A stretch of 36,628 nucleotides of DNA, taken from positions 1 through 36,628 of the forward strand of contig CAMYKY010000019.1 of NCBI GenBank assembly GCA_947259165.1, written 5' to 3'. Position 1 is the first letter of the stretch, and each line of letters opens with the position of its first letter. This document shows, in pieces, positions 16,709-36,152 of this stretch. The DNA is from an uncultured Acidobacteriota bacterium (GTDB lineage Bacteria > Acidobacteriota > Vicinamibacteria > Marinacidobacterales > SMYC01). Under the pieces are notes generated by a model, which saw only the letters and a program-made list of their open reading frames with translations, did not search any database and was not told the DNA's origin. The translations under genes and the position numbers were made by a program.

Positions 16709-17056
16709 ATGAAAATCGAGGAACGAGCAGTTGATGGCGTCACCATCTTGGATTTGCATGGCAAAATGCTCATCGGTGAAGGTGACGAGCTGCTGCGCGA
16801 GAAAATCAACAGTTTAGTCGAGAACGGAACCGAGAAGATCGTGTTGAATCTGGCCGAGGTTCCCTACGTCGACAGCGCGGGCCTGGGAGAGATCGTTCGC
16901 TGTTTTACAACGGTTAGCCGAAAAAACGGTGAGCTCAAACTCTTGAACTTAACGAAACGCATCCACGACTTGCTTTCGATCACAAAGCTTCTGACCGTCT
17001 TCGATACCTACGAAGAGGAGTCGGCAGTGATCAAGAGCTTCGACAAGGGCGCGTAG
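16709..17056 (+). CDS. STAS-domain anti-sigma factor antagonist (SpoIIAA/RsbV-like)
   Basis: 115-aa single STAS domain. The phosphorylatable Ser56 lies in the family motif YVDSAGLGEI, after the beta-strand KIVLNLAEVP. Such proteins release sigma factors or other partners from anti-sigma kinases when the serine is unphosphorylated. No anti-sigma kinase, PP2C phosphatase or sigma gene lies in this window, so its partner is unknown. AGGAGG precedes the ATG by about 10 bases. It stands immediately before the prenyltransferase and glycosyltransferase cluster and is on the same strand, so it may be the first gene of that transcript. Confidence 0.9.
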   Translation: MKIEERAVDGVTILDLHGKMLIGEGDELLREKINSLVENGTEKIVLNLAEVPYVDSAGLGEIVRCFTTVSRKNGELKLLNLTKRIHDLLSITKLLTVFDTYEEESAVIKSFDKGA

Positions 17057-17104: not shown

Positions 17105-17200
17105 GTGAGGAAGCCAGAGCTCGAAAAGCCTAGAGAACCCAGCGTCGTCGCGGAAGCTCTGCTGCAGTTGAACGCGGGGAACTTTCTAGCGAATCGGTAG
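17105..17200 (+). CDS. possible 31-aa leader ORF overlapping the prenyltransferase start
   Basis: GTG 17105 opens MRKPELEKPREPSVVAEALL and ends after NFLANR at TAG 17198-17200; the last base is the first of the GTG start of the prenyltransferase (TAGTG). AAGGAG lies at 17084-17089, 15 bases upstream, rather far. The arrangement resembles a translational coupling ORF. No family recognised; it could be chance. Confidence 0.25.
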   Translation: MRKPELEKPREPSVVAEALLQLNAGNFLANR

Positions 17201-18108
17201 TGGCGCTGGTGTCTTACGCTCGCCAGCTCAAACAACTTCTCGTTTCCCTCCGCCCTCACCAGTGGACAAAAAATCTCGTCGTATTCGCCGCGCTCATCTT
17301 CTCGGAGCGTCTGTTTCATTGGCCTTCGCTGACGGCCGCTGCGGGCGCGGTCGGGATCTTTTGTTTGCTGTCGGGCGCGGTCTACCTGGTCAACGACCTG
17401 GTGGATGTCGAGCAGGATCGTCGACACCCGGTGAAACGCGAGCGACCGTTGGCTTCAGGGAAGCTGTCGAAAGGGTTTGCGTTGGCGTCGGCGGTGATTA
17501 TCGTCACCGTGGCTCTGTTTCTTGCGTTCGAGCTGACCACGCCGTTTGGGATCGCGTCGGTCGTCTATCTCGTGACGATGACCGGCTATTCGTTAGCGCT
17601 CAAGCACGTCGTCATCTTGGACGTTCTCATCGTTGCGTTAGGTTTCGTGCTGAGGGCAGTCGCCGGAGCATTGGCGATCGACGTCGCCTTCAGCAATTGG
17701 CTTTTAGTTTGCACATTACTGGGCGCGTTGTTTCTGGCTCTAGCCAAGCGTCGACACGAGTTGACACTTTTGGCGGGTGAAGCAGCGGGGCACCGAAAAA
17801 TTCTAGGAGAGTATAGTCCCTATCTGTTGGATCAGATGATTGCCGTGGTGACGGCCTCGACTTTGGTCTCGTATGCGCTCTATACGCTGGCGCCCGAGAC
17901 AGTGGCCAGATTCGGCACCGATCGATTGATATGGACGCTTCCTTTCGTGTTGTATGGGATTTTTCGCTACCTGTACTTGGTGCATCGAAAGGAAGAGGGA
18001 GGAAATCCCACGAAAGTACTTCTCAACGATAGGCCGATTCTCGTGACGGTAGCGCTTTGGGCAGCGACGGTCGTCACGGTGATTTACCACGGAAGCCGAT
18101 CGGGATAG
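17200..18108 (+). CDS. UbiA-family prenyltransferase, decaprenyl-phosphate phosphoribosyltransferase-like
   Basis: 302-aa integral membrane protein with about eight hydrophobic helices. The first Asp-rich motif is NDLVDVEQDRRHPVKRERP (from residue 65) and the second surrounds DVLIVALGFVLRAVAGA. This form, with 'HPxKRxRPxASG', is that of the DPPR-synthase branch of UbiA, which transfers phosphoribose from PRPP to polyprenyl phosphate on the cytoplasmic face; in mycobacteria it begins decaprenyl-phosphoryl-arabinose synthesis. The adjoining glycosyltransferases fit a lipid-linked glycan pathway, but no DprE1/DprE2-like epimerase is present here. GTG start at 17200 (a second GTG at 17209 is possible). 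The exact acceptor is unknown. Confidence 0.85.
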   Translation: MALVSYARQLKQLLVSLRPHQWTKNLVVFAALIFSERLFHWPSLTAAAGAVGIFCLLSGAVYLVNDLVDVEQDRRHPVKRERPLASGKLSKGFALASAVIIVTVALFLAFELTTPFGIASVVYLVTMTGYSLALKHVVILDVLIVALGFVLRAVAGALAIDVAFSNWLLVCTLLGALFLALAKRRHELTLLAGEAAGHRKILGEYSPYLLDQMIAVVTASTLVSYALYTLAPETVARFGTDRLIWTLPFVLYGIFRYLYLVHRKEEGGNPTKVLLNDRPILVTVALWAATVVTVIYHGSRSG

Positions 18109-18180: not shown

Positions 18181-18960
18181 ATGTCTACCTTCAGCGCGAA
18201 GGGGTCGGACATCGACGTGGAGGCCATCATGGCCAACATTCGAAAGAAGATCGAAGAGAAGCGCAAAGGGCTCTACACCGAGGAAGAAGTGCGCGAAATC
18301 GCAGAAATGCAGCTCGACGCGATCCTCGACAGCAACCAGTTCAACAGTGATTTCGTCGCGGCGTTTCGGGCGCGGGACGAGCAGTGGAACTACACATTCA
18401 CGCCTGAGACGATCTATGCATCATCGCGCGGAGGAGGGGGCGGGCTCATCCGCTCGCTGCGCGGACTGTTGAATCCTCTCTTGAAGTTGTTCTTCAACCC
18501 CAATCCCATCATCAGCGCGCTCTCGCGTCAGTCCGACTTGAATCGCTACTACGTGCTCATGCTCCACAACATGACGACCGAGATGACGAGGTTGAACCTC
18601 GAATTCACCAATCTCAAAGCGCGACTTCGCACTCTCGGCGTCCGGGTCGACTTTCAGACGAAACGAGAAAAGACCTTCGAGCAACTCGCGACCTCCAATC
18701 GGGAAGCACGGGAAGCACGGGAATCGCGGGAGCCGAGAGAGCCACGGGAACCAAGAGAGACTCGGGAGCCGCGACAGGCACGCGAGTCGTCGTCGCGCGA
18801 ATCCGCGTCAGGCGAAGGTCGCCGTCGCGGGCGGGGTGGTGGTGGCGGCGGGCGTCGCCCCTATCGTCGCCGTCGCGGCGGCAAGCCGAACGGCGGTCGC
18901 GGTGGGGATTCCGGCTCGCGGGACAGTGGCGGCGGAAGTGGCGGTGGAGGCTCGAAGTAA
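18181..18960 (+). CDS. glycan-cluster protein with helical core and Arg/Gly-rich tail
   Basis: 259 aa, function unknown. Residues 9-50 (GSDIDVEAIMANIRKKIEEK, then YTEEEVREIAEM) and the helical segment 86-160 (LLNPLLKLFFNPNPI, LNRYYVLMLHNMTTEM) resemble N-terminal segments I associate with methyltransferases and glycosyltransferases of polysaccharide clusters. Residues 174-203 repeat RE(A/S/P) units (REPREPREPRETREP), and 214-259 is a disordered basic R/G tail (GEGRRRGRGGGGGGRR; GGSGGGGSK). ATG 18181 follows AGGAGG by only three bases; GTG 18160 is an alternative start. It precedes four glycosyltransferase genes on the same strand. A scaffold role is speculation. Confidence 0.75.
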   Translation: MSTFSAKGSDIDVEAIMANIRKKIEEKRKGLYTEEEVREIAEMQLDAILDSNQFNSDFVAAFRARDEQWNYTFTPETIYASSRGGGGGLIRSLRGLLNPLLKLFFNPNPIISALSRQSDLNRYYVLMLHNMTTEMTRLNLEFTNLKARLRTLGVRVDFQTKREKTFEQLATSNREAREARESREPREPREPRETREPRQARESSSRESASGEGRRRGRGGGGGGRRPYRRRRGGKPNGGRGGDSGSRDSGGGSGGGGSK

Positions 18961-18988
18961 CCGAGCGCCAGGAGGCTCTTCTCAGACT

Positions 18989-20302
18989 GTGACTCCGCGT
19001 GCAGCTCGACCTTCTTCGCAGCCGCGAAGAGACGTCGAGCCGCTCAGACTCGCGTTCATCGTGCAGCGCTACGGCGAGGACGTGAATGGGGGCGCAGAGT
19101 ATCACTGCCGTCTGATCGCGGAGCACCTGGCGCCGCAGCATCAGGTCGAGGTCATGACCTCGTGCGCGAAGGACTACATTACTTGGCGCAACGAGCATCG
19201 TCCTGGGCTTGATGAAGTCAACGGGGTTCGTGTGCGTCGGTTCAAAGTCAGGAGACCTCGGGACCCCGACCGTTTCGGGCGCTTGTCGCAGAAGGTTTTT
19301 CTCGGGCGCCACAGTGAGAAGGATGAGCTCGCGTGGCTCGATGAGCAAGGACCGTTTTCGCCGAAGCTGTTATCGTTCTTGAAACGCCGCCATGATGACT
19401 ACGACTACTTCATCTTTTTCAGCTATCGCTACTATCACAGCTTTTTCGGGGTGCAGGCCGTCGCGCCGAAGGCCGTGTTAGTGCCAACCGCTGAAAGGGA
19501 CGAAGTCATCAATCTCGATATTTTCAAGGGGATGTTCAACCTTCCGCGAGCGATTGTTTACAACTCCGTGGAGGAGCGCTCGATGATTTGGAAGACGTCG
19601 GGCAACCGAGCCGTTCGCGGCGAGGTTGTCGGAGTCGGCTCCGATGTGCCGTCGTCCATTGATCCGGAGCTCTTTCCATCTCGTTATCGAGTGTCGGGGC
19701 GCTACATTATTTATGTCGGACGGGTCGACCCCAACAAAGGCTGCCGTACGCTGTTCAACTACTACCGTCGCTATCGCGAGGAGACGAAAACCCCACTCGA
19801 GCTCGTGCTCGTCGGCGGCAAGATGATGGAGATTCCCGAGGAGCCGGGGATTCGCTACGTCGGGTTTTTGTCGGAAGCCGAGAAGTGGAGTGCGCTCGTG
19901 GGCGCCGAGCTACTGGTGATGCCGTCCGAGCTCGAGAGCTTGTCCATGGTGACGAACGAAGCCTGGTCCGTGGGGAAACCCGTGCTAGCGAACGGTAAAT
20001 GCGACGTGCTCGCTGGGCAATGCCGACGGTCGAATGCCGGCCTCTACTTCGAGGACTACTACGAATTTCGAGAAGCGCTGTCGCGTCTCGAATCCGATGC
20101 GGCATTGCGCGAGGGCCTCGGGGAAAACGGCAAGATCTACTACCGCGATCACTACCGTTGGGAAGTTGTCGAAGGCAAGTACAACCGCATGCTGTCGTTG
20201 CTCCGCGAAGAAGATCGGCTGAAGCCTCCGGTGATCGCTAGAGTGGGCCTGTTGGCCCGGCTGACGCGCTTCGCCGGGCAGGCCCGTCAGGTTGTCGCGT
20301 AG
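18989..20302 (+). CDS. GT-B glycosyltransferase, family 4 type (copy A)
   Basis: 437 aa from GTG 18989; AGGAGG lies 13 bases upstream, so the start is uncertain, and the frame stays open into the previous gene. The N-terminal acceptor domain begins LRLAFIVQRYGEDVNGGAEY, and the C-terminal donor domain shows YIIYVGRVDPNKGC and an EX7E motif in PSELESLSMVTNEAW, as in GT4 retaining enzymes that use nucleotide sugars. No membrane segment. It shares CAKDYITWRNEHRPG and other segments with the gene at 22445, so the two are paralogues. Sugar and acceptor cannot be told. Confidence 0.88.
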   Translation: MTPRAARPSSQPRRDVEPLRLAFIVQRYGEDVNGGAEYHCRLIAEHLAPQHQVEVMTSCAKDYITWRNEHRPGLDEVNGVRVRRFKVRRPRDPDRFGRLSQKVFLGRHSEKDELAWLDEQGPFSPKLLSFLKRRHDDYDYFIFFSYRYYHSFFGVQAVAPKAVLVPTAERDEVINLDIFKGMFNLPRAIVYNSVEERSMIWKTSGNRAVRGEVVGVGSDVPSSIDPELFPSRYRVSGRYIIYVGRVDPNKGCRTLFNYYRRYREETKTPLELVLVGGKMMEIPEEPGIRYVGFLSEAEKWSALVGAELLVMPSELESLSMVTNEAWSVGKPVLANGKCDVLAGQCRRSNAGLYFEDYYEFREALSRLESDAALREGLGENGKIYYRDHYRWEVVEGKYNRMLSLLREEDRLKPPVIARVGLLARLTRFAGQARQVVA

Positions 20303-21385
20303 ATGCAGGTTCACCAGATGCTGGCCGCGCTGTCATACGGCGACGCGATCGGTAACGAGGCGCTTCGCATCCAGCAGATTCTGCGGGAGGAAGGGTTCGA
20401 TTCCGATATCTTCGCGGAATCGGTGCACCCCGAGATGGCGGGTCATGCGAACAAGCTCTGGGATTACCAGAACATAGCGTCTCCCGACAATCTTCTCATT
20501 TTGCACTTTTCGATCGGCGCCGGCGTTAGCACATTCGCCTATCATCTCCCGGACCCGATACTACTCGTCTATCACAACATCACGCCGGCGCGATGGTTCG
20601 CGAAGTTTCACGAGCACCTCGCCGGTCTGTGCTATCACGGTCGTCGTGAGCTCTCGGCGTTCGTCCCTCGAGCCCGATTGGCGCTCGGCGATTCCGAGTT
20701 CAACCGCGCCGAGCTCGAGGCCGTTGGGTTTCACCCTACGGGGGTTTTGCCGCTGTTGCTCGACCCTGACCGTCTCGCGGAAGATCCGAGCCCGGTCGTG
20801 CTCGAGATGTTCGACGATAACAAGTCGAATTTCTTGTTTGTCGGCAGAGTGATCCCGAACAAGTGTTTCCAAGATCTGATCAAGGTGTTTGCGTTCTACC
20901 AGAAGTTCATCGATCGCAACTCCCGTTTACTGCTCGTCGGCGAATGGGTAGGGTTCGAGAAGTACTATGAAGCGCTGGTTCGACTCGTCGATGACTTGGC
21001 GTTGAAGGATGTCGTTTTCACCGGGCACGTCGATGACGATGACCTGTCGGCGTACTACGAAGTGGCCGATCTGTTTTTGTGTCTGAGTGAGCACGAAGGC
21101 TACTGCGTGCCACTCGTCGAGGCGTTCAGGTTCGGCGTTCCCGTTATGGCGGCTGATGCGGGCGCCGTTCCCGAGACCCTCGGGGATGCGGGCGTTCTTA
21201 TTCGCGAAAAACGAATCGATGAGATCGCCCTCATGGCCCACGCCATCGTTACCGATGAAGCGTTAGCCCAAAAGATCGTCGAGGGCCAGGACCGCGTGCT
21301 CGATCGCATGGAGTCGCTCGATGACGCCGAGCTGCTCATGCGGTTCGTCAAACAGGCTTTGGCAACGGAAACGGTGAGCCGCTGA
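20303..21385 (+). CDS. GT-B glycosyltransferase, family 4 type (copy B)
   Basis: 360 aa; the ATG follows the previous stop with no gap (TAGATG). The N-terminus is MQVHQMLAALSYGDAIGNEA, the middle has LLVYHNITPARWF and LALGDSEFNRAEL, and the donor domain has NFLFVGRVIPNKCFQDL with the EX7E element in LSEHEGYCVPLVEA. GT4-like, cytoplasmic, probably adds a sugar to the lipid-linked glycan. The next gene (21387) is its tandem paralogue. Confidence 0.88.
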   Translation: MQVHQMLAALSYGDAIGNEALRIQQILREEGFDSDIFAESVHPEMAGHANKLWDYQNIASPDNLLILHFSIGAGVSTFAYHLPDPILLVYHNITPARWFAKFHEHLAGLCYHGRRELSAFVPRARLALGDSEFNRAELEAVGFHPTGVLPLLLDPDRLAEDPSPVVLEMFDDNKSNFLFVGRVIPNKCFQDLIKVFAFYQKFIDRNSRLLLVGEWVGFEKYYEALVRLVDDLALKDVVFTGHVDDDDLSAYYEVADLFLCLSEHEGYCVPLVEAFRFGVPVMAADAGAVPETLGDAGVLIREKRIDEIALMAHAIVTDEALAQKIVEGQDRVLDRMESLDDAELLMRFVKQALATETVSR

Positions 21386-21386
21386 C

Positions 21387-22448
21387 ATGCGTGTCGACCA
21401 ATGGGTGCCGGCAGCGCATCGCGGCGATGCGATTGGCGATGAGGCGATGCGCATCCGAGACGTCCTGCGCGGAGCCGGGATGGACTCTGACGTGTTCGCG
21501 CTAGACGTCGACGACGATCTCGAGGGAGACGTTCTCGAATTCTCCCAAAGGCCGCGAAGCGACACGACGATTCTTCACTTCGCGCTGCCGTCTCCCCTGA
21601 CGGCGGCGCTCGCCGACACATCGGGCAAGAAGATTCTCATTTACCACAACATTACACCGTCCCGATTCTTTGTGGGCTATGACGATGAGCTGGCTCGTAT
21701 CGCCGAAGCGGGCGTCAAGGAACTGGTCTCGTTGGCGGACGAAGTCGATCTCGCGCTTGGCGATTCCGAGTTCAATCGGGAGGAGCTAGCTAATCTCGGG
21801 TTCTCGCGGACGGGAGTGCTTCCCATTCTCATGAATTTCGACGAGTTTACCGATGGAACCCCGAACCCGGTCATGGAGGAGCTGTTGAGCGACGGACGTG
21901 CCAATTTCCTTTTCGTCGGGCGTGTCTTTCCGAACAAACGGTTCGAGGACCTGGCGCGGCTCGCTTTTTTCTACAAGAAGTACGTATCAGAAGATTTTCG
22001 ATTCATCCTCGTCGGCAAAGCCGGGCGGATGGAGCGTTATCAACAATCGGTACAGGCCCTGGCGGACAAGTGGGGTTTGAGGCCGAGTGAGTTCTTGTTC
22101 ACCGGTCACGTAAGCTTTGACGATCTGCTTGCGTGCTATCGGTGCTCCGATGTTTTTATCAGTATGAGTGAGCACGAAGGCTTCGCAGTGCCTCTCGTGG
22201 AGTCGATGCTCATGGATCTCCCGGTGATGGCCTATGCCGCTGCCGCGGTGCCCGATACTCTGGGCGGCGCCGGGATTCAGTTTCGCGAAAAGCGATACGA
22301 GGAGTTGGCCGAGATGGCCCTTTTACTTACAGTCGATACGAATTTGAGAGCAGCCGTGATCCGCTCTGAGCAAGAGCGATTGGGGCGGTTCCAACCTGGT
22401 CGCGTCGAGGCGGATCTTCTAGGCTACGTCGAGGAGGTGCGCTCGTGA
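21387..22448 (+). CDS. GT-B glycosyltransferase, family 4 type (copy B')
   Basis: 353 aa, starting one base after the stop of copy B. It is a diverged duplicate: GDAIGDEAMRIRDVLRGAGM, LIYHNITPSRFF, LALGDSEFNREELANLGF and MSEHEGFAVPLVES all align with copy B. EX7E is intact, so it should be active. The stop overlaps the start of the next gene (GTGA), implying that the four glycosyltransferases are translated as one coupled set. Confidence 0.88.
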   Translation: MRVDQWVPAAHRGDAIGDEAMRIRDVLRGAGMDSDVFALDVDDDLEGDVLEFSQRPRSDTTILHFALPSPLTAALADTSGKKILIYHNITPSRFFVGYDDELARIAEAGVKELVSLADEVDLALGDSEFNREELANLGFSRTGVLPILMNFDEFTDGTPNPVMEELLSDGRANFLFVGRVFPNKRFEDLARLAFFYKKYVSEDFRFILVGKAGRMERYQQSVQALADKWGLRPSEFLFTGHVSFDDLLACYRCSDVFISMSEHEGFAVPLVESMLMDLPVMAYAAAAVPDTLGGAGIQFREKRYEELAEMALLLTVDTNLRAAVIRSEQERLGRFQPGRVEADLLGYVEEVRS

Positions 22449-24532
22449 AGCTGGCATTCATCGTACAGCGATATGGACGAGAGATTCTCGGAGGCTCCGA
22501 GACTCTAGCTCGCCAGTTGGCCGAGCGACTGTCGCGTCGCCATGAGATCACCGTGCTCACAACGACAGCGAAGGATTACATTACTTGGAAAAACGAGTAC
22601 GAGCCAGGCGAGGAGAAGCAGCGCGGCGTTCAACTCATACGCTTTGCGGTCGACGGCGAGAGAGATATCGACGAGTTCAACAAGTTCTCGGAAGAGATCT
22701 ATCAGGGCGAGCCGACACGTGAGCAGGAGCTCGATTGGCTCAACCGGCAGGGCCCGGTTTGTCCCGGTCTCATTGAGTATCTCGAAAAAGAGCACGAGAA
22801 CTTCGACCTGCTCGTGTTTTTCACGTACCTCTACTATCCGACGTTTTACGGTTTACAAGTCGCGCCAGAGAAGAGCGTCCTTATTCCCACGGCTCACGAC
22901 GAACCGCCGCTCAAGCTCTCTATTTTCAAGGAAATGTTTCAGCTTCCGGGTTCTTTCTTGTTCAACACGGAAGCCGAAGAGCTCCTCGTGCTCGAACGTT
23001 TTCCGGTTCACAAGAAGATGCGCGAAACCATCGGGATGGGCATGGAGCTTCTCGACCAACCCGATCCTTCGATTTTCCGCAGCCGTCACAACGCCTCGGC
23101 CAAGTACTTTCTCTACGCCGGGCGCATCGACGGCGGTAAGGGCCTCGAAGAGCTGTTCCGGTATTTCACGTTTTATAAGGAAGAGAATCCCGCATCCGGA
23201 AACTTGGAGCTCATGCTCATTGGCAAACTTGGCATGAAGCTTCCGGACGACAAGTCTATCCGCTACGCCGGATTCGTCGACGAAGCCGAGAAGCTTTCGG
23301 CGATGGCCGGTGCGATCGCGGTCTTGCAGCCGTCCAAGATGGAGAGTCTTTCTATCGTGACCCTGGAAGCGTTTGCCGTGGGTACGCCGGTCGTCGCCAA
23401 CGCTGCGTCGCGCGTTCTCATCGATCATTGTCGTAAGGCCAACGCCGGGTTCTACTATCACGAGTTCGAGGAGTTCGAGGGGATTATCAATCTGCTGCTC
23501 TCGGATCGGAACCTCGGCAAGAGCCTTGGCAAGAACGGACAGCGTTACATCAAAGACAACTATGGATGGCAGAAGCTTCTGAACAAGTACGAGCTTGCGC
23601 TGCGCGCCTCCGGACGCCCTCTCAAAGAGCCCAAGGAAGCTCGACGTCGCGACCCGGGCGAATCGAGAGCGGAGACGACTCAGAAGGGGCGCGAACGCGA
23701 CGACCAACGGCCGCCCGCCGAGATCGTGGCCGCTACACCGGCTGCGTCACAGAGCGATGAAAAACCAGAGCCCGAACGGTCGGAGAGACCCGAGCGTGGG
23801 CGGAGTGTGAAATCTGACGCTGCCCAAGGCGGGCAACGTGACGCTGCGCCACACGAGAGCCCGGATAGCGCGGGAGCCTTTGTCGGTGCGGTGTCGGAAT
23901 CCGCGGACACCGACGCGACGGTCAGCGAGATGGAGCAGCGCAAAGCCCCGTCGCGCGATGATGTCGATGCCAGCAGGGAAGGCTCCGGCCTTCCCGCGGA
24001 GGCTCGCGTTACCCGCGAAGGCGATCTGGCCGAGCCCGCGAAAGCCGAGTCGGTCGTCGATTCAGGTGACGAGCCCCGGAGCGTTGAGGCAGCGCCTTTG
24101 GAGCCAGCTGAACCTGCCGAGCCAGCAACAGACAAACCGTCGGGCGAGGTTATCACCGGCGTTGAGCCTGAAGGGGACGCTGCCGCCGAGCTCGTCGAAG
24201 AAGAAGTGAGCGAGGACGTCGCTCACTTGCCGAGTTTTTTCCAGGCGGCGATCCCGGCGCGCAAGCAAGAGCCTGTGGTCCGTATTGCGCCGAAACCGGC
24301 CGAGCCGAAGCTTCAGCCACCCCCGCCCCCTCCTCCGCCTGAGCCACCCGCTGACGGCGGGTTGCCCTCGTTTTTCCGCCCCAAGCCCGAGGCACTGGCG
24401 AAGCCTGCGCCTCAGCCGGAGGAGCTGAAGGCCGACGAGCCTGAAGCTGTCAAGCCTGAAGCTGAGGAGCCTCAAATTGAGGCGACGAAAGAGCAGGAAA
24501 ACGAACCGCCGAGCGACCGAGCGGACGAGTAG
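22445..24532 (+). CDS. GT-B glycosyltransferase (copy A') with ~300-aa disordered acidic/proline tail
   Basis: 695 aa from GTG 22445. Residues 1 to about 390 form a GT4-type enzyme like copy A (LAFIVQRYGREILGGSETLA, TAKDYITWKNEYEPG, YFLYAGRIDGGKGLEEL, EX7E in PSKMESLSIVTLEAF). From about 395 to the end is low-complexity sequence rich in Glu, Pro, Ala and Asp, with no predicted fold, an eight-Pro run and two copies of a short motif: LPSFFQ (595-600) and LPSFFR (640-645). Copy A has no such tail. The reading frame and codon use stay regular through the tail, so it is not a frameshift product. Confidence 0.88.
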   Translation: MKLAFIVQRYGREILGGSETLARQLAERLSRRHEITVLTTTAKDYITWKNEYEPGEEKQRGVQLIRFAVDGERDIDEFNKFSEEIYQGEPTREQELDWLNRQGPVCPGLIEYLEKEHENFDLLVFFTYLYYPTFYGLQVAPEKSVLIPTAHDEPPLKLSIFKEMFQLPGSFLFNTEAEELLVLERFPVHKKMRETIGMGMELLDQPDPSIFRSRHNASAKYFLYAGRIDGGKGLEELFRYFTFYKEENPASGNLELMLIGKLGMKLPDDKSIRYAGFVDEAEKLSAMAGAIAVLQPSKMESLSIVTLEAFAVGTPVVANAASRVLIDHCRKANAGFYYHEFEEFEGIINLLLSDRNLGKSLGKNGQRYIKDNYGWQKLLNKYELALRASGRPLKEPKEARRRDPGESRAETTQKGRERDDQRPPAEIVAATPAASQSDEKPEPERSERPERGRSVKSDAAQGGQRDAAPHESPDSAGAFVGAVSESADTDATVSEMEQRKAPSRDDVDASREGSGLPAEARVTREGDLAEPAKAESVVDSGDEPRSVEAAPLEPAEPAEPATDKPSGEVITGVEPEGDAAAELVEEEVSEDVAHLPSFFQAAIPARKQEPVVRIAPKPAEPKLQPPPPPPPPEPPADGGLPSFFRPKPEALAKPAPQPEELKADEPEAVKPEAEEPQIEATKEQENEPPSDRADE

Positions 24533-34147: not shown

Positions 34148-34292
34148 GCGGGCAGTCTAGCACGGCACCGAGCCTTAGTTCATGCACGCCTGCATGCAAG
34201 AAACTGCAGCGCACGTTCGCGTAACTCGTTGAAACAAAGCCCCTTTGGTGTGGAACGGGTCTTGCTCTACCAGGCGGTGGGAGAGGTCACCG

Positions 34293-36152
34293 ATGAGCCA
34301 ATCGCACCAAGTAGGTCACTTAGAATTGCTACGCGACCGCCATTTCGGCCCGCTGTTTTGGACCCAGTTTCTTGGGGCGTTGAACGACAACCTGTTCAAG
34401 ACAGCGTTCATCTTCATTATTACCTACGGTGTGCTCGCCGAGACGCACGACGGCGCTCGATGGACGCCCATGTTGAATGGTCTCCTGATCCTTCCGTTTT
34501 TCCTGTTTTCTGCGATGGCCGGTCAGATTGCCGACAAGCTCGAAAAATCGAGGCTGATTCGATGGATCAAGCTCTGGGAGGTGGCGGTTATGGCTGTTGC
34601 CGCCGTCGGCTTTCTCACCAGCAATGCGTGGCTTCTAGCAGCGGCCCTGTTCCTGATGGGGACGCAGTCAGCGTTTTTCGGTCCGGTCAAGTATTCCATC
34701 CTCCCGCAAACGTTGAGCGCGGACTTACTCATTTCCGGAAACGCTTTGATTGGCACCGCGACGTTTCTGGCGATTCTTCTCGGCAGTATGGGAGGAGGGC
34801 TGCTCATGGAAACCGGGTCTGTCTCGACGGTGACGGCGGTCCTGCTGCTGGCGATCTCTGCGGCGGGATTGGCGGCGAGCTGTCGTATTCCCGCGGCGCC
34901 GGCAAGCGATCCTGGACTCCGCTTCGACTGGAACCCGCTTCGACAAGCGCTAAGCGTGTGTCGTGACGCGGCGAGAGACCCGTTGGTTTGGCGCGCGATT
35001 CTCGGTGTGTCGTGGTTTTGGTTCTTCGGCGCGACGCTCCTGACCCTGTTTCCGACCTATGGAAGAAACGTGTTGCACGTGAACGAACAAGTGGTGACGG
35101 TCTTCCTCATGACGTTTTGTATCGGCATTGGCCTCGGAGCGATGCTGTGCTCTGTCGTCGCCCGTTTCCGCCTTGCAATGGGCCTCGTGCCGGCGGGCGC
35201 GCTCGGTCTCAGCGTCTTCGCGTTCGACCTCTTTTTTGCGAGCCTGGCGTTCGAGCCGACTGTGGGACTCGCTGGGATTGCCACCTTCTTGGCGAGCTCC
35301 GGAAGCGCTCGCATCGTGATCGACTTGCTCGGACTCGCCATCTGCGGAGGCCTGTACGTCGTGCCGCTCAACGTGCTCGTTCAGGCGCGCGCACCCGTCG
35401 ACCGCCGCTCCCGGATTCTCTCGGCCAACGGCATCGTCTCGGCCTTGTTCATGGTCGTCTCGGCGGGAATGACGCTCGGGTTTGCGTCGCTCGCGATCCC
35501 GTCGGTATTGACGTATCTCGTGCTTGCGCTTATGAACGCGGCTGTCGTCGTATACATCTTCAAACAGGGGCCGGAGCTGTTTCTTCGCTTGGTCGTCTTC
35601 GTTGTCGTACGCACTTTCTATCGGCTTCGCGTTAGCGGCCTCGAACATGTTCCGGAACACGGGCCGGTCGTCCTCGCCGCCAACCATGTGACCTACGTCG
35701 ATGCTTTGATTCTCTCCGCGGCGCTCGCCCGTCCGATCCGCTTCGTCATGTACTACAAGTTCGGCGAGATGCCGCTCGTCGGACGATTTCTCGAGCGTGC
35801 TCGCGTTATCCCTATCGCCAGCGCTCGTGAGAACCCGGAGCTACTGCAAGAAGCGCTCGACGACATCGCACAAGCGTTGCAGGATGATGAAGCGGTGTGC
35901 ATTTTCCCGGAAGGCGCCCTGACGGACGACGGCGAGATCAGGGACTTCAGGAGAGGCATCGAGCGGATTGTTGCCCGTACCCCGGCGCCGGTCGTTCCGA
36001 TGGGGCTCCAGGGGCTTTGGGGAAGTCTCTTCAGCCGGGCGCGGAAGCGCTTCCGGCTGTGGACCAAGATTCGCGTTCGTGTCGGTACGCCGATTGCGGT
36101 GAGTGAGGTCTCAGCGCTGCGGGTGCGGGAGCGAGTCGCGGCGCTAGTGTGA
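34293..36152 (+). CDS. MFS lysophospholipid transporter-PlsC acyltransferase fusion
   Basis: 619 aa from ATG 34293 (MSQSHQVGHLELLRDRHFGP); 16 extra codons are open upstream. Residues 1 to about 430 are a 12-helix MFS domain like LplT (FWTQFLGALNDNLFKTA, QSAFFGPVKYSILP). The C-terminal PlsC domain shows NHVTYVD (HX4D, His465-Asp470), and FPEGALT (538 onward) of the acyl-acceptor site. The AMP-binding acyl-ACP synthetase domain of E. coli Aas is missing. Probably imports lysophospholipids by LplT-like flipping and re-acylates them, maintaining membrane lipids. Single gene. Confidence 0.9.
   Translation: MSQSHQVGHLELLRDRHFGPLFWTQFLGALNDNLFKTAFIFIITYGVLAETHDGARWTPMLNGLLILPFFLFSAMAGQIADKLEKSRLIRWIKLWEVAVMAVAAVGFLTSNAWLLAAALFLMGTQSAFFGPVKYSILPQTLSADLLISGNALIGTATFLAILLGSMGGGLLMETGSVSTVTAVLLLAISAAGLAASCRIPAAPASDPGLRFDWNPLRQALSVCRDAARDPLVWRAILGVSWFWFFGATLLTLFPTYGRNVLHVNEQVVTVFLMTFCIGIGLGAMLCSVVARFRLAMGLVPAGALGLSVFAFDLFFASLAFEPTVGLAGIATFLASSGSARIVIDLLGLAICGGLYVVPLNVLVQARAPVDRRSRILSANGIVSALFMVVSAGMTLGFASLAIPSVLTYLVLALMNAAVVVYIFKQGPELFLRLVVFVVVRTFYRLRVSGLEHVPEHGPVVLAANHVTYVDALILSAALARPIRFVMYYKFGEMPLVGRFLERARVIPIASARENPELLQEALDDIAQALQDDEAVCIFPEGALTDDGEIRDFRRGIERIVARTPAPVVPMGLQGLWGSLFSRARKRFRLWTKIRVRVGTPIAVSEVSALRVRERVAALV

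Follow-up and report, generated by a model that had tools for sequence, protein, structure and literature searches.

An ancient glycosyltransferase cassette of Vicinamibacteria with a candidate scaffold-partner core and, in one order, tails of opposite charge

In Escherichia coli O9a, a non-catalytic region of WbdD brings the mannosyltransferase WbdA to the membrane (PMC3482155), and WbdD proteins combine a coiled-coil ruler with an amphipathic helix and a recruitment site for the polymerase (PMC11231755). Here we describe a locus with elements of a similar kind on a stretch of 36,628 nucleotides (the window) from an uncultured Acidobacteriota bacterium of the class Vicinamibacteria (contig CAMYKY010000019.1, GenBank assembly GCA_947259165.1, a 5.02-Mb draft), in which a protein that we call S is encoded ahead of four GT4-type glycosyltransferases (GTs), A, B, B' and A'. 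The locus is best described as an ancient GT cassette with a putative scaffold-partner core, formed by S and A', that was elaborated by tails of opposite charge in one order. No account of it was found in the open literature searched, which likewise held nothing relevant on GT loci of Vicinamibacteria or on disordered GT tails.

In the explanation that we favour, and hold with moderate confidence, S would be a membrane-associated, oligomeric coiled-coil scaffold with the last GT4 protein, A', as its core partner. The other GTs, A, B and B', would be catalytic subunits that join S and A', or work beside them, to build a lipid-linked glycan, with a polyprenyl-phosphate pentose supplied by the neighbouring UbiA where that gene is present. 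Contact between S and A' would predate the tails and sit in the folded parts of the two proteins; in the window's order it would be reinforced by the two tails, that of S being basic and rich in arginine and glycine (R/G) and that of A' acidic, with an LPSFF motif that probably docks on a partner protein. A' would have a structural role besides catalysis, which would account for its survival after the loss of catalytic residues in two lineages. The proposed link is supported by the LPSFF motif shared among A' tails, by reductions of the locus that keep both S and A', and by the conservation of A' once catalytic residues are gone.

Gene order, spread and reduction of the cassette

All genes from UbiA (17200-18108) to A' lie on the + strand. 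S (18181-18960) starts with ATG, has AGGAGG close on its 5' side and belongs to no known family. It is followed by A (18989-20302; GTG start; PF00534, 53.1 bits), B (20303-21385; PF00534, 82.1 bits), B' (21387-22448; PF13692, 65.1 bits) and A' (22445-24532), whose open reading frame comprises a catalytic region and then an acidic disordered tail. Intergenic distances are 72 nucleotides (UbiA-S), 28 (S-A), 0 (A-B), 1 (B-B') and -4 (B'-A'), such that the genes nearly touch or overlap from S onwards. PF00534 is matched by all four GTs at 53-82 bits against a cut-off of 26.4, and all four (4/4) carry R-x4-K and E-x7-E, the residues known in GT4 enzymes, here termed the RKEE tetrad. A and A' are 41.5% identical (160/386), as are B and B' (141/340), whereas A-type and B-type proteins share just 23-27%. 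The original prediction had read an A-B-B'-A' order of two paralogue pairs from the segments DYITW[RK]NE, YHNITP and LALGDSEFNR; every one of these is found in the sequence and the order stands. Its suggestion that the genes form a single coupled set gains support from an identical gene order across the phylum.

S was detected in 80/80 genomes of the class, which had not been preselected for its presence. The order UbiA-S-A-B-B'-A' was seen across most families of Vicinamibacteria, and S-A-B-B'-A' recurs in other Acidobacteriota classes with different flanking genes, UbiA being adjacent in two. In a tree of 60 GTs, the types A, A', B and B' are kept apart with only 3 label changes, the lowest number possible (support 92/70 for A, 84/61 for A' and 100/100 for B; no single branch sets off all of B'), from which it follows that the duplications predate the radiation. 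The mirror-like order is thus, on this phylogenetic reading, a product of ancient duplication and not a peculiarity of the window genome. For a large soil group whose members are mostly uncultured, the cassette is a core locus, and it spans the phylum Acidobacteriota.

Reduced versions of the locus set S and A' apart. Both are present in every readable locus of the class's main cassette, while B and B' were lost 5 separate times, A was lost from the locus 3 times and S or A' 0 times. Were loss equally likely for each of four units, the chance of this pattern would be roughly (1/2)^8, or 0.4%, a figure that serves as an indication only, the events not having been counted on a species tree. One genome (G053) keeps UbiA, S, A and A' after losing B/B'; eight genomes of family f5 lost B/B' as well and keep UbiA, a DUF362 gene, S, A and A'; UbiA is missing in two others (G052 and G076); and the locus of G025 and of G078 holds S and A' alone. 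Genome-wide searches showed that family f2, the sister of the window's family f1, lacks UbiA, A, B and B'. In its 10 genomes, UbiA is unmatched in nine and has a 26% match in the tenth, B finds only generic GT4 matches, and the single A-type relative left per genome is the A' adjoining S. The 66 other genomes of the class all contain an A-family match, the distinction between A and A' being confined to the loci that were read. Lineages thus retain S and A' as a pair despite other losses, and the two probably constitute a structural core in addition to any enzymatic role. The special tie proposed between the first and last genes of the set is supported: the two are always kept together, and their tails occur jointly in 14/14 genomes of the window's order.

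Two further observations concern distribution. Genomes of family f3 have a second cassette at another locus (L161, L162, L163 and L078), in which two A-type GT4 genes come after an S-like gene. Vicinamibacteria-type S is also contained in public records of metagenome-assembled genomes titled Bifidobacterium breve and Acidimicrobiia (L120, L128 and L137), probably through mislabelling; in L120 and L128 an A' gene is present too.

The proteins S and A'

S matches no Pfam or NCBIfam model, and a profile search of the PDB returned just coiled-coil-like matches with E values of 0.2 or worse. AlphaFold (AF2) predicts a protein that is all helix apart from its tail: short helices, a helix at residues 85-104 (18433-18492) and a long, 75-residue helix at 108-182 (18502-18726), the last with a predicted local-distance difference test score (pLDDT) of about 83-97 over most of its length. 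The helix at 85-104 has the highest hydrophobic moment within S (0.61); it is predicted to be amphipathic and may serve as a membrane anchor, no transmembrane segment being predicted in S. The long helix is a probable coiled coil. S stands as a candidate scaffold protein without any family model. In an S protein of another class (L144:7786-8370), the long helix aligns weakly, below the threshold, with DivIVA (PF05103, E 0.003).

The catalytic region of A' (residues 1-395; 22445-23629) is confidently predicted as a GT-B fold, with pLDDT mostly above 90, and its nearest Foldseek matches are GT4 structures such as MshA, PimA and WaaG. The RKEE tetrad is present in 67 A' proteins outside f2 and a subclade of f5. 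In f2 it reads PRAE, or RHAE in G006, an incomplete GT4 residue set; in the f5 subclade (eight genomes) it reads RNDE or IRDE. The glycine loop close to the N-terminus, LGGSE, has changed in f2 as well as in most members of the f5 subclade, and the Pfam match of f2 A' is at most sub-threshold. Selection has nevertheless maintained these proteins, the ratio of non-synonymous to synonymous substitution rates (dN/dS) being mostly 0.14-0.20 for the folded part within the main f2 genus and 0.17-0.47 for A' in the f5 subclade. Since the tree places f2 A' beside f1 and the f5 subclade elsewhere, two loss events are implied, and a derivation of f2 A' from the degenerate f5 form is rejected. On at least two independent occasions, then, catalytic residues of GT4 enzymes disappeared from A' while it was under purifying selection, and the residues present make it a probable pseudoenzyme in these lineages. 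Seen in this light, the cassette points to a GT that more than once became a probable pseudoenzyme and was maintained by selection.

A' also varies between its two GT-B domains, where the A' proteins of families in which A' has no tail (L049, L055, L057, L070 and L075) carry a variable, often acidic insert at residues ~215-275; the insert is absent in f1, f2 and f3.

Charged tails and competing explanations

The tail of S (residues 176-259; 18706-18957) has a net charge of +12 and an isoelectric point (pI) of 11.8, with 22 R and 23 G. That of A' (residues 396-695; 23630-24529) has a net charge of -33 and a pI of 4.4, with 48 E, 22 D and 47 P over 300 residues, and its pLDDT is below 50 over nearly the whole length. 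The basic and acidic tails of the original prediction are thus confirmed, with the refinement that the S tail begins as a mixed-charge R-E-P repeat and is purely R/G only in its second part. Both tails are conserved in the three other genomes of the window's family, which, with the purifying selection on the S tail described below, speaks against a chance occurrence, and throughout the window's order (four genomes of f1 and 10 of f2) a purely basic S tail goes with an acidic A' tail of net charge -11 to -48. Neither protein has such a charged tail in f3 and in other classes, where a few S proteins have short, mildly basic ends. In the remaining families, S has an (R)8GRRG-like block followed by an acidic stretch of its own, and A' is without an acidic tail; outside f1 and f2 no A' tail falls below a net charge of -1. 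As f1 and f2 are sisters, the arrangement in which the charges are split between two proteins probably arose once. The tails are better seen as a young, lineage-specific addition to an apparently older partnership of S and A', and the three states (no charged tails, S bearing both charges, and one charge each for S and A') form a natural series on the use of charged tails in bacterial enzyme assembly.

LPSFF is found in 13 of the 14 A' tails across f1 and f2 (G001 with LPSFY), while G006 has LTGFF. All four f1 genomes have it together with a second copy of the form LP[SAE]F[FY], in the window at residues 595-599 (24227-24241) and 640-644 (24362-24376), and in f2 it stands at the C-terminus. 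Among shuffled versions of the window's A' tail, such a motif appeared in 1 of 20000. Within long acidic tails of genomes G000 and G008, LPSFF is confined to A'. Two ideas about the motif were dropped: the corresponding DNA pattern in G000 is no commoner than a control pattern, which speaks against a genome-wide docking motif, and a sign in the AF2 model of LPSFF folding back on its own protein, A', lies where the pLDDT of the tail is below or near 50.

It had been proposed that the charged tails gather the enzymes as a membrane condensate or assembly line, a view with which the opposite net charges, the disordered A' tail and the adjacent, co-directional genes agree. In f3 and other classes, however, the same gene set occurs with neither tail, and other families have a charged tail on S alone, so the tails cannot hold the cassette together in general. 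Moreover, f2 keeps both tails yet lacks A, B, B' and UbiA, leaving no assembly line to hold together. A condensate as such, to which the computed disorder and charge point in no specific way, is possible; the proposal as a whole seems quite improbable. A shared role for the tails fails, then, for the cassette as a whole, and stands to the extent that the two co-occur in every genome of the window's order. Slightly less remote, and still improbable, is that both tails arose by neutral expansion of low-complexity sequence, the genomes being GC-rich. Their lengths vary widely (22-118 residues in S, 73-321 in A') and the dN/dS of the A' tail is about 0.3-0.7 outside the motif (about 0.5 in f2), as neutrality would allow. 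It would not lead one to expect the purifying selection seen on the S tail, whose dN/dS is 0.13-0.25 among close f2 genomes, near that of its core, and 0.14-0.35 in f1 where dS is unsaturated, nor the retention of LPSFF across f1 and f2.

A more serious rival, tenable though rather unlikely, gives each tail a function of its own: S would use its R/G tail to bind anionic lipid or RNA, and the acidic, LPSFF-bearing tail of A' would recruit a protein encoded elsewhere, with joint presence reflecting common descent only. Consistent with this, the tails occur jointly within one order, that is, with one origin; LPSFF is conserved on its own; and the families that combine (R)8GRRG with an acidic segment in cis, and have no acidic tail on A', indicate that the basic block of S does not need A'. 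Such independence sits poorly with the retention of S and A' through every reduction seen and with the acidic A' tail occurring exactly where S is without an acidic segment in cis. The scaffold-partner reading accommodates both of these patterns, and several observations weigh against it: the draft genome of the window is 84% complete; G078 has an A-type GT elsewhere, near a second copy of S; the heptad score of the long S helix is moderate, with 67% hydrophobic residues at a/d positions; f5 A' might retain some activity, given that D stands in for E and N for K; the correlation between the tails rests on few independent events, the split arrangement having arisen once; and the fast evolution of the acidic tail outside its motif is compatible with a role in solubility or as a spacer. 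Going further, and more tentatively, S and A' may form a scaffold unit of Vicinamibacteria that stands on its own, a GT having twice independently turned into the non-catalytic partner of a membrane coiled-coil protein. The f2 pair, with both tails and LPSFF, would then have outlived the glycan pathway and would function outside glycan synthesis or organise other envelope enzymes, a possibility that we regard as doubtful but worth stating.

Glycan context and described systems

UbiA exceeds the cut-off of the decaprenyl-phosphate phosphoribosyltransferase model NF008977 (315.4 bits; cut-off 234), matches the enzyme of that name in PDB 8j8j (E 2e-36) and contains the motif NDxxDxxxDxxHPxK at residue 65 and 6 transmembrane-like segments. 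Judged by its sequence, it is a polyprenyl-phosphate phosphoribosyltransferase of the DPPR-synthase type, that is, an enzyme of lipid-linked pentose donors. The UbiA-like protein of the original prediction is thus UbiA-type and can be named more exactly; it is among the parts lost in relatives. Upstream, a STAS-domain protein (16709-17056, + strand; PF01740, 58.2 bits) is a conserved neighbour, found beside UbiA or S in most loci of the class that were examined; purD and the STAS gene are among the conserved genes preceding the cassette. In several families a DUF362 gene, absent in the window, lies between UbiA and S (L055:4888-6087, L075:5356-6642 and L206-L213).

Besides UbiA, the only protein with many transmembrane-like segments among the window proteins tested is encoded at 34245-36152 (+ strand). 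It reads as an MFS-like transporter fused to an acyltransferase-like domain, has 10 such segments and recalls lysophospholipid transporter/acyltransferase fusions. Elsewhere in the window, a subtilisin-like protease (1078-2838, - strand) has about eight head-to-tail copies of the hexapeptide FMWNDA in its C-terminal part.

Akin to the GT4 family (PF00534), the four GTs of the window have its fold and R-x4-K/E-x7-E residues, but part of the latter is gone from A' in f2 and in the f5 subclade. The mycobacterial decaprenyl-phosphate arabinose pathway (Rv3806c, DprE1/E2) begins with an enzyme homologous to UbiA. Unlike in that pathway, PF04030, a domain expected in DprE1, is missing both in the window genome and in 13 of the 14 relatives tested (14/15 genomes), which argues against arabinose as the product. 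UbiA suggests a polyprenyl-phosphate ribose donor, as in the three-component pentofuranose systems with a polyprenyl phosphoribose synthase (PMC11127046), an enzyme of the same kind. The locus differs from these systems in that no MATE flippase or GT-C protein was recognised beside UbiA among the window proteins tested, distant loci not having been searched, and in that UbiA is separable from the cassette, being lost in f2, G025, G052 and G076.

The closest parallel is the WbdD-WbdA system. Like WbdD, S is a predicted coiled-coil protein with a putative membrane-binding amphipathic helix and is encoded with GTs; AF2 gives a single 75-residue helix with the hydrophobic a/d share noted above, the preceding helix has the hydrophobic moment given earlier, and recruitment of A' is suggested by retention only. 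Unlike WbdD, S has no methyltransferase, kinase, GT or other terminator domain that Pfam, NCBIfam or the AF2 fold would reveal, and no ABC transporter genes of that kind were recognised at the locus. The likely partner here is, moreover, a single GT4 protein that can lose its catalytic residues. Having the same kinds of elements without the terminator domain, S may act like the non-catalytic part of WbdD without being WbdD.

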